A stretch of DNA of 64,000 nt, taken from the NCBI GenBank assembly GCA_902567785.1, contig CACFOR010000002.1:62001-126000 (forward strand), read 5' to 3'. Below, piece after piece: positions 16,115 through 18,805 of this stretch (its first letter is position 1; the number at the start of each line of letters is the position of its first letter). The notes beneath the pieces are model-generated. The model was not told the origin of the DNA. It worked only from the letters and a program-made list of their open reading frames with translations, and made no database searches. The DNA is from an uncultured Pelagibacteraceae bacterium. GTDB taxonomy: Bacteria; Pseudomonadota; Alphaproteobacteria; Pelagibacterales; Pelagibacteraceae. The translations under genes were made by a program, and so were the position numbers.

Positions 16115-16698
16115 TTTAAAGTGTTTAAATATTCCTTTATTTGTTTAACTGGCAACCCCATAATTGCATCTTCGTCTCCTTTTATTTCAGAAAATAAAGA
16201 TCTTCCATCAGCTTCTATTTGATAGACTCCATAAGCAAATAGTTCTTTATCTCTTATCTTAGTTAAATATGTTTTAATTTCATCCAAATTAAGTTTTTTC
16301 ATTGTTAATGTAGATTCGTCAGTAACATTCCATATCATAGAACCATTTTTTGAAATACAAACTGAACTTATTAACTTGTGCTTTTTGCCATTTAATTTTT
16401 TAAGAATATTAGTTGCTTCTTCTCTATTTGTTGGTTTTGAAATTAGTTCACCTTCTAAGTCTATTACACTGTCAGCTCCCAGAACAATTTCTTCAGGTTT
16501 TTTTTGACTAACTTTATTTGCTTTCACTTCTGCTAAATTTTTAGAAATTATTTTTGGCGTAGCTTTTTCTTTAATCAATGATTCTTTGATTGAATCTTCA
16601 TCAACATTTGCGGGTATTACCTCGCAAATAATATTGTTTTGATCTAAAATTTTTTTCCTCACTCCGCTTTTTGATGCAAGAATTATTTTTTTACTCAT
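16111..16698 (-). CDS. maf: Maf-like nucleoside triphosphate pyrophosphatase
   Basis: House-cleaning hydrolase of non-canonical or modified nucleotides. The start is set at ATG 16698 (MSKKIILASKSGVRKKIL), which overlaps the ppsR stop by 4 bases and gives 195 residues. LASKSGVRKKIL is the Maf N-terminal motif with an altered SxxR. VLGADSVIDLEGE carries the catalytic Asp, and YGVYQIEADGRSLFSEIKGD the C-terminal signature. The exact substrate preference (dTTP/UTP versus m7GTP) is not decided. A reading from further upstream would only duplicate the ppsR end in another frame. Confidence 0.93.
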   Translation of the reverse strand: MSKKIILASKSGVRKKILDQNNIICEVIPANVDEDSIKESLIKEKATPKIISKNLAEVKANKVSQKKPEEIVLGADSVIDLEGELISKPTNREEATNILKKLNGKKHKLISSVCISKNGSMIWNVTDESTLTMKKLNLDEIKTYLTKIRDKELFAYGVYQIEADGRSLFSEIKGDEDAIMGLPVKQIKEYLNTLK

Positions 16699-17516
16699 CT
16701 TGAATTTAATATATCCAATATCTTTATAATGGAAGCCGCAGTTTCTTCTACGGATTTTCTTGTAACATCTATAGTTGGCCAATTATTTTTTTTAAATAAT
16801 TTTTTTGAATCTTCTAATTCATTTAAAATTTTTTTCTCATCTGTGTAATCTCCTGGTCTATCTTCGTTCAAGGAATGAATTCTATTTCTTCTAACATCTG
16901 ACAATCTTGTGGCATCACAAATGAGACCTACAATGCAAGTCTTTTTTGAAATTTCTATTAATTTATTTGGCACATCTTTATTTAAGATAAGAGGTATATT
17001 TGCAACTTTGTAACCTCTATTTGCTAAATAAATTGATGTTGGAGTTTTGCTTGTTCTACTAATCCCTACTAAAACAACATCTGATTTTTCTAAGTCTGAT
17101 ATAATTTTTCCATCATCATGTGAAATTGTAAATTGAACAGCTTCAATTCTCTTATAATATTCCTCGTCTAAAATGTGTTGTCCACCTGGTTTACGAATTG
17201 GTTCCTTTTTAAGTAACTTTGAAAAATCAGAAATTATATTGCCTAAAATCTCAAAAGATGGAATATTATTTTCTTTGCATTTTGCAGCTAAATTTTTAGA
17301 TAAATTTTTGTCAATAATAGTATATAAAACAATTACATTTTTTTCTTCTTTACACTTACTAATGATTTTATTAATTTGATTTTCAGTTCTTGTAAAAGAA
17401 TAATGGATTGTTTTACATTCAAAATCTATAAACTGTGCCTTTATAGCTAAAAAAATTCTATCCAGAGCCTCACCGGTTGAATCTGACACTTGATAAACTT
17501 GGTAAATCTTGTTCAT
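16695..17516 (-). CDS. Pyruvate, phosphate dikinase (or PEP synthase) regulatory protein, kinase/phosphotransferase
   Basis: A DUF299 bifunctional regulator that inactivates PPDK or PEP synthase by ADP-dependent Thr phosphorylation and reactivates it by phosphorolysis. The 273-residue length is normal. YQVSDSTGEALDRIFLAI opens the protein, GISRTSKTPTSIYLANRGYK holds the P-loop-like nucleotide site, and PLILNKDVP and GLICDATRLSDVRRNRI follow. This is the RP001 homologue that flanks the origin in Caulobacter and Rickettsia. Here too it transcribes away from the origin-like spacer on its right. Confidence 0.95.
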   Translation of the reverse strand: MNKIYQVYQVSDSTGEALDRIFLAIKAQFIDFECKTIHYSFTRTENQINKIISKCKEEKNVIVLYTIIDKNLSKNLAAKCKENNIPSFEILGNIISDFSKLLKKEPIRKPGGQHILDEEYYKRIEAVQFTISHDDGKIISDLEKSDVVLVGISRTSKTPTSIYLANRGYKVANIPLILNKDVPNKLIEISKKTCIVGLICDATRLSDVRRNRIHSLNEDRPGDYTDEKKILNELEDSKKLFKKNNWPTIDVTRKSVEETAASIIKILDILNSR

Positions 17517-17794
17517 AAAGGTGTTGATATTTTTTTAAATAATAGTTTATTCATATATTTTATAAAATTGTTAAAGTTATTAAAAATAACAAACAACAAA
17601 TTAAGTTAGTTATAAACGTTGGTAAAATATAAACAAAATATTATAAACATTAACAAAATATAACATATGTAATTAAATCAATAGTTTATAATGTATATTA
17701 TTAACAGATCTTATGGATAAATTGTAGACAACTAATTAATACCATTATTAACATGACCTAATAATACTATTAAACTTATTTATATATTTATTTA
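17517..17794. other. oriC: Putative chromosomal origin of replication (oriC) between ppsR and hemE
   Basis: This 278-base, gene-free, very AT-rich spacer is one of the largest gaps in the window. It lies between the DUF299/RP001 homologue and hemE, the gene pair that flanks the characterised Caulobacter origin and is conserved in alphaproteobacteria. It holds TATGGATAA at 17712-17720, 8 of 9 matches to the DnaA box TGTGGATAA. The word TTATAAAC is iterated at 17610 and 17641 on the plus strand and at 17684-17691 inverted; TTATAAACA at 17641 matches TTATCCACA at 7 of 9 positions. Genes on both sides read outward. parA, parB and a parS site lie about 11-12 kb away. No good TTAA-N7-TTAA CtrA site was found. 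Confidence 0.72.
17610..17663 (+). repeat. Two imperfect 23-bp direct repeats in the origin region
   Basis: TTATAAACGTTGGTAAAATA at 17610 and TTATAAACATTAACAAAATA at 17641, each extended by TAA, form two 23-base units (17610-17632 and 17641-17663) identical at 19 of 23 positions. The repeat period is 31 bases, about three helical turns, which would place bound proteins on one face of the DNA. A further inverted TTATAAAC lies at 17684-17691. These look like iterons or degenerate DnaA sites. Confidence 0.55.
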
Positions 17795-18805
17795 ATGAAC
17801 GAAAAATTGAGAAATTGTATTGAAAAGAAAACAACTTCTTATACACCCATTTGGTTTATGAGACAGGCTGGAAGGTATTTGCCTGAGTTTAGAGAAATAA
17901 GAAAAAAAAATCCAGACTTTATAAAATTATGTTTAAACGAAAGGTTATCAGCTGAAATTTCACTTCAACCAATTAAAAGATTCGACTTAGATGCAGTTAT
18001 AATATTTTCCGATATCTTAATGATACCATATGGTCTTGGACAAAAAATTGAATTCAAAAAGGGAATTGGGCCGATTTTGGGAGATTTAAATTTTAACGTT
18101 ATTCTTAATACAAAACCAAATGATTTTATTGAAAAATTATCTCCAGTATATGAAGCAATAAAAAGAGTAAAAAAAGAAGCAAAAGATAAAAACCTTATCG
18201 GCTTTGTTGGGGCTCCTTGGACATTATTAATGTACATGTTGAATAAAAAATCTCCAAAAAACAACTTTGATATAAATAAAATTATTAAAAATAAAAGTTT
18301 AATGAGAGATTTAATTATAAAATTAGAAGATATAATTTTTTTACATACGAAAGAACAAATTAAAGCTGGGGCGGATATTATTCAAATATTTGATTCTTGG
18401 GCTGGTTTATTACCAAAAAACAAACTTTCAGAGTACTGTTATATTCCTACTTCGAAGATAGTAAAAAATATAAAATCATTAGAAATTCCAGTGATATGTT
18501 TTCCAAAAGGAATTGGAGAAAATTATATAGATTTTTGTTCTGCAGTTGAACCGAGTTGTATAAGTATAGATTATGAAATTGAACCACAATGGATCAAAGA
18601 AAATTTACATGGAACACCAGTGCAGGGAGGATTGGATCCAAAAATATTATTAGGTGACAGAGAAGAAATAAAAAAAAATATTAATAAATACCTCGATGTA
18701 TTTAAGGATTATCCTTATATTTTTAATTTAGGTCATGGTGTTTTACCAGAAACAAAACCCGAAACAATCGAATATGTAATCCAAACAATTAGAAATAAAA
18801 AATAA
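17795..18805 (+). CDS. hemE: Uroporphyrinogen decarboxylase
   Basis: Decarboxylates uroporphyrinogen III to coproporphyrinogen III in heme synthesis. It has 336 residues. The signature PIWFMRQAGRYLPEFREIRKK (from about residue 19) holds the substrate Arg residues. IIFSDILMIPYGLG contains the catalytic Asp region, GFVGAPWTLLMYML is conserved, and NLGHGVLPETKPE closes the active site. It is the first rightward gene after the origin-like spacer. hemH follows after one base. Confidence 0.98.
   Translation: MNEKLRNCIEKKTTSYTPIWFMRQAGRYLPEFREIRKKNPDFIKLCLNERLSAEISLQPIKRFDLDAVIIFSDILMIPYGLGQKIEFKKGIGPILGDLNFNVILNTKPNDFIEKLSPVYEAIKRVKKEAKDKNLIGFVGAPWTLLMYMLNKKSPKNNFDINKIIKNKSLMRDLIIKLEDIIFLHTKEQIKAGADIIQIFDSWAGLLPKNKLSEYCYIPTSKIVKNIKSLEIPVICFPKGIGENYIDFCSAVEPSCISIDYEIEPQWIKENLHGTPVQGGLDPKILLGDREEIKKNINKYLDVFKDYPYIFNLGHGVLPETKPETIEYVIQTIRNKK

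Follow-up and report, generated by a model that had tools for sequence, protein, structure and literature searches.

The replication origins that most resemble the locus described here are the Cori of Caulobacter crescentus and the oriC type of Rickettsia and Wolbachia (hemE-RP001/COG1806), which have in common with it the flanking genes, an IHF-type site, DnaA boxes and a high A+T content (PMC1914354). CtrA sites vary or are missing in accepted hemE-type origins, and those of Caulobacter Cori are unsupported in the spacer studied here; origins in Wolbachia were found with the canonical TTATNCACA consensus, whereas most DnaA boxes here read TTATNAACA (PMC1914354). A second parallel is the basal unwinding system (BUS) of Bacillus subtilis, in which DnaA-trios read 3'-NAT-5' on the complementary strand (PMC8287927). 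Our locus likewise has a box, a 4-bp gap and five consecutive trios with a conserved middle A on the complementary strand, although its trio-proximal box has A rather than C at position 6 and no second box clearly in tandem with it can be seen in the SAR11 genus concerned. Precedent for a lineage-specific DnaA-box preference comes from the epsilonproteobacterial origins of Helicobacter and Arcobacter (PMC5043019), but there it is box position 5 and DnaA helix-5 residues that differ, whereas here position 6 has become A and the base-contact residues look unchanged.

The window, the whole stretch of 64,000 nucleotides that we analysed, spans positions 62001-126000 of contig C2 in a Pelagibacterales (SAR11) genome whose close relatives are titled Pelagibacteraceae; the assembly (G000) consists of 820 kb in 13 contigs and is 63% complete. 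A spacer of 278 bp and 15% G+C (17517-17794) separates the divergent genes for a DUF299/RP001 homologue (PF03618; COG1806) on the left (16695-17516, minus strand) and hemE on the right (17795-18805, plus strand), the placement typical of a hemE-type oriC and, to the nucleotide, the one given in a first-pass annotation made from the sequence. That annotation also had genes diverging on both sides, which holds locally (minus strand from 14.1 to 17.5 kb, plus strand from 17.8 to 23.2 kb) and gives way to mixed orientations beyond. We conclude with high confidence that this spacer is the chromosomal replication origin (oriC) of the SAR11 bacterium, because its gene neighbourhood is syntenic, the skew of complete relatives switches there, and it contains an IHF-type site as well as an element made of a DnaA box and DnaA-trios.

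The flanks differ in some relatives. In one genome (G030; locus L239, contig C1, DUF299 at 140546-141307 plus the next 600 bp), hemE is gone from the origin, and the order is DUF299, an oriC-like spacer and a rho-like reading frame; the only hemE-like gene there is a distant one (29% identity, at 718 kb), and the same weak match is found in G096. In the sister family (f2; L026-L031, L320-L333), DUF299 is absent from the origin and a maf-like gene stands directly opposite hemE; the boxes of these origins are mostly canonical or near-canonical, and CTACTACTACTA-like trios occur in low-G+C genera.

Plain GC skew per 10 kb was uninformative; it tracks gene orientation, and we therefore measured G against C at third codon positions gene by gene, controlling for coding strand, and contrasted presumed leading with presumed lagging genes for candidate origins on a 10-kb grid over sampled stretches of complete relatives. 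In the complete genome G026, the hemE spacer was the best of all grid positions, with a log-likelihood gain of 26.8 as against 11.8 at dnaA (these likelihoods take codon sites as independent), and in G024 the best breakpoint fell at 60-70 kb, a range that includes hemE (67 kb). When the profiles of four complete genomes (G026, G024, G101 and G099) were added together, the maximum lay at -10 to 0 kb relative to the spacer (47.9 and 47.8), with 24.1 and 20.1 at +60 and +70 kb, the distance of dnaA, which lies ~64 kb from the spacer in the window's genome and 62-72 kb away in relatives. Since G099 gave no usable skew signal, as was also the case for the G017 contig, and G101 alone peaked at +30 to +40 kb, the localisation comes mostly from G026 and G024. 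The window's own contig is consistent with it, showing a broad maximum around the spacer and a value of ~1 at dnaA; T3/A3 skew indicated no clear origin. By third-codon-position skew in the four complete relatives, the switch is found at the spacer and not at dnaA, so that the skew check by which the first-pass annotation could have been refuted comes out in its favour.

We name DnaA boxes by position 6, the canonical TTATNCACA being C6 and the variant TTATNAACA being A6. Alignment of 13 spacers from the genus brought out a conserved IHF-type site, AATCAATAATTTA, then TTATTAACA just before hemE with a short gap and CTAATAATACTATTA-like repeats, and additional conserved TTA(T/A)TAACA and ATAT(A/T)AACA sites. 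In the window the IHF-type site, as expected of a hemE-type oriC, is AATCAATAGTTTA (17676-17688, plus strand; consensus WATCAANNNNTTR); 11 such sites occur in 10 of the 13 genus spacers, with 0.6 expected, and genes of the HU/IHF family are present. The TTATTAACA before hemE, an A6 variant at 17745-17753 (plus strand), is the predicted trio-proximal DnaA box, and other SAR11 genera have TTATTCACA in this slot. It is followed by the 4-bp gap TGAC (17754-17757, plus strand) and by the trios CTA ATA ATA CTA TTA (17758-17772, plus strand; 3'-NAT-5' five times on the complement), the predicted strand-opening site. The definition of a BUS asks for three or more NAN trios no farther than 16 bp from a DnaA box, and here five are found 4 bp from a box of the A6 class. 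When 1.255 Mb from four genomes were scanned for a box, 3-6 bp and at least 4 NTA, only two matches were obtained, one in the window's spacer and one in the closest orthologous spacer, that of G017. Several other genera have breaks in the trio run, and CTACTACTACTA-like trios are found in three genomes of the sister family.

Upstream of this element, a predicted DnaA box TTATCCATA lies on the minus strand at 17712-17720, one mismatch from TTATNCACA and at slot -33 from the trio-proximal box; read on the plus strand it is TATGGATAA, the near-consensus box that had been noted at 17712. A second predicted A6 box, again TTATTAACA (17698-17706, plus strand), is TTAATAACA in most sister genomes, and ATATAAACA (17627-17635, plus strand) is aligned with ATATTAACA in some sisters, marking a conserved A6-type position. 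The IHF-type site (17676), the two TTATTAACA boxes (17698 and 17745) and the DnaA-trios (17758-17772) had no place in the first-pass annotation.

We counted every 9-mer in 72 non-redundant spacers of the family, an unbiased scan with shuffles as the reference. The most enriched was TTATTAACA (111 seen, 4.8 expected) and the second was the canonical TTATTCACA (39 seen, 0.62 expected), and 70 of the 72 spacers contain the TTATNAACA class. Exact canonical TTATNCACA numbers 1 in the 13 genus spacers and 46 in the 59 others, A6 being the commoner class in both sets. In the window's genome, 37 intergenic regions (8.4 kb) of the contig contain three TTATNAACA sites, every one of them in the spacer, and by the count of A6 plus C6 the orthologous spacer comes first, alone or tied, in three relatives. 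Spacer regions of the sister family, whose members mostly have a higher G+C content, contain no more than one or two A6 sites each. With the trio-proximal box as the zero point, the boxes occupy slot 0 on the plus strand and, at intervals of roughly a helical turn, slots -22, -33 and -44 on the minus strand, together with upstream slots, and the two classes interchange: C6 and A6 account for 33 and 12 of the occupants at slot 0, 4 and 9 at slot -224, and 1 and 14 at slot -148. Because slot 0 feeds the trios, nothing speaks more strongly for A6 boxes as DnaA sites than this interchange.

The base-specific contacts of E. coli DnaA are made by residues 399, 423, 432-435 and 438-439 (PMC5043019). 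SAR11 DnaA retains RDHTT(V/I) and the ARPRQ/VRPRQ basic loop, and as far as can be judged from sequence its base-contact residues look intact. The residue before R432 (RDHTT), usually glycine, is asparagine in most Pelagibacteraceae genera sampled (f1; L112-L134, L202-L231). We considered a link between this residue and the A6 box and rejected it: SN genera have TTATTCACA or TTATTAACA at slot 0, and xG genera carry A6 boxes too.

In our judgement, the working DnaA box of the Pelagibacteraceae is now probably TTATNMACA (M = A or C), most commonly TTATTAACA; the sites, not the base-contact residues of DnaA, would have changed, and initiation would proceed mainly through boxes that standard searches score as mismatched. 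The simplest reading would be that the sites drifted under A+T pressure within the tolerance of DnaA. A6 boxes may be lower-affinity sites that are filled cooperatively, and they could be weak sites or sites of another protein; the candidate sites named for a comparison of DnaA binding are TTATTAACA, TTATAAACA, TTATTCACA and TTATCCACA, with a scramble. Literature searches for SAR11 DnaA boxes, oriC boxes or DoriC entries returned none, and a search for A6 9-mers gave only unrelated sequences among the matches listed.

That a DnaA site here had drifted toward A+T was already proposed in the first-pass annotation, for TTATAAAC. The drift is borne out for TTATTAACA and its class TTATNAACA, by 9-mer enrichment and slot interchange, and not for TTATAAAC, so that the place and the idea were right and the motif copy was wrong. 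The three TTATAAAC copies do exist, at 17610 (plus), 17641 (plus) and 17684 (minus), as do the 23-bp direct repeats (17610-17632 and 17641-17663, 83% identical and 31 bp apart), which are unique to this genome. The first copy, TTATAAACG (17610-17618, plus strand), is genome-private and reads TTATATACG in most sister genomes. The second, TTATAAACA (17641-17649, plus strand), belongs to the A6 class and is not conserved in the genus; most sister genomes have no counterpart, only unalignable sequence. The third (17684-17691, minus strand) overlaps the IHF-type site and is shared only with sister genome G015. Other genera often have TTATAAACA at slots -22 and -33, and in G030 it occupies slot 0, followed by TGAC-CTAATA. 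As it fills DnaA slots elsewhere, the window's copies may bind DnaA, yet they do not belong to the conserved core; within this box class, TTATAAAC can be ranked as no more than an accessory element private to the genome.

Readings other than a DnaA-driven origin at this spacer account less well for these observations. The origin might adjoin dnaA, as oriC does in many bacteria, with the spacer merely a divergent promoter region, and the TATAAA within TTATAAAC does look like a -10 element; but the skew support at dnaA, summed over the four complete relatives, is about half of that at the spacer, the TTATAAAC copies lack conservation and are 104-185 bp away from hemE, and in 21 genomes the 350 bp upstream of dnaA contained no DnaA box, standard or variant, a result by which we also discarded autoregulatory boxes at dnaA. 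We regard this reading as highly unlikely. Scarcely tenable is an origin gated by CtrA in the manner of Caulobacter: the flanking genes are the same and TTAA-N7-TTAA shows a modest excess in spacers of the genus (20 against 5.9 expected, strand-counted, in 7 of 13 genomes), but it is not enriched in other genera (36 against 31) and is confounded by the TTAA within TTATTAACA. Among the four OmpR-type regulators found in the window's genome (63% complete), PhoB scores above its curated cut-off, the other three fall below any cut-off shown, and none approaches the cut-off for CtrA; Pelagibacter, moreover, has been reported to lack ctrA (PMC2877005). The pairing of TTAA-N7-TTAA sites with a ctrA gene that would mark a Caulobacter-type origin was thus not found, and we do not claim CtrA control of the spacer. 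One OmpR-family protein with a degenerate receiver domain is encoded at ~39.7-40.4 kb of the window (DNA-binding domain G000:C2:102168-102380), and a similar gene lies ~18-28 kb from oriC in G024, G026 and G030.

Two further readings accept the spacer as oriC and assign its repeats differently. The TTATNAACA repeats could serve a different regulator, a SAR11 stand-in for CtrA, leaving DnaA to a few canonical boxes only; another regulator is conceivable given that none of the four OmpR-type proteins scores as CtrA, and the genus spacers are nearly devoid of exact TTATNCACA while rich in TTATTAACA. However, A6 and C6, which have TTATN-ACA in common, swap at the same slots and on the same strand, and do so even at the box that stands 3-6 bp from the trios. 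One would not expect some other protein to follow the slots of DnaA, so we consider this unlikely. Less probable again is the notion that initiation in this one species is set by the TTATAAAC iterations, acting as iteron-like sites. At least three copies arise by chance with p ~0.002 (2000 dinucleotide shuffles of the spacer; p is uncorrected for the choice of motif), and two of them lie inside the 23-bp repeats, but a repeat as good appeared in 40 of 500 shuffles and is therefore unremarkable by itself. Most sister genomes lack copies at the same positions, and the genus spacers show no enrichment of TTATAAAC (4 seen against 2.0 expected, in 2 of 13 genomes); on alignment and count together we rejected it as the conserved motif of the lineage.

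Returning to oriC driven by DnaA, we infer DnaA binding to A6 boxes, strand opening and IHF binding at this spacer, and the following sequence of events can be proposed. DnaA would bind a box array that in this family is composed mostly of the A+T-drifted class (TTATNAACA, mainly TTATTAACA) with a few canonical boxes; in other genera the boxes stand 22, 33 and 44 bp from the trio-proximal box. An IHF/HU-type protein would bend the stretch that separates the upstream from the downstream boxes. Nucleated on the trio-proximal box (TTATTAACA at 17745), a filament of DnaA would cross TGAC onto the DnaA-trios (CTAATAATACTATTA) and melt the A+T-rich stretch before hemE, where the helicase would be loaded.

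SAR11 is among the most abundant bacterial groups of the ocean. With the change mostly from TTATNCACA to TTATNAACA, by one conserved letter, standard origin searches would miss most such boxes. That oriC lies 62-72 kb from dnaA is relevant to growth-rate estimates based on ori/ter read coverage; one such method puts dnaA-bearing fragments at the origin (reviewed in PMC7852909), a placement that would be off in this case. The drifted box itself offers a concrete and cheap way to test how far a site can change in sequence and still be recognised by DnaA.
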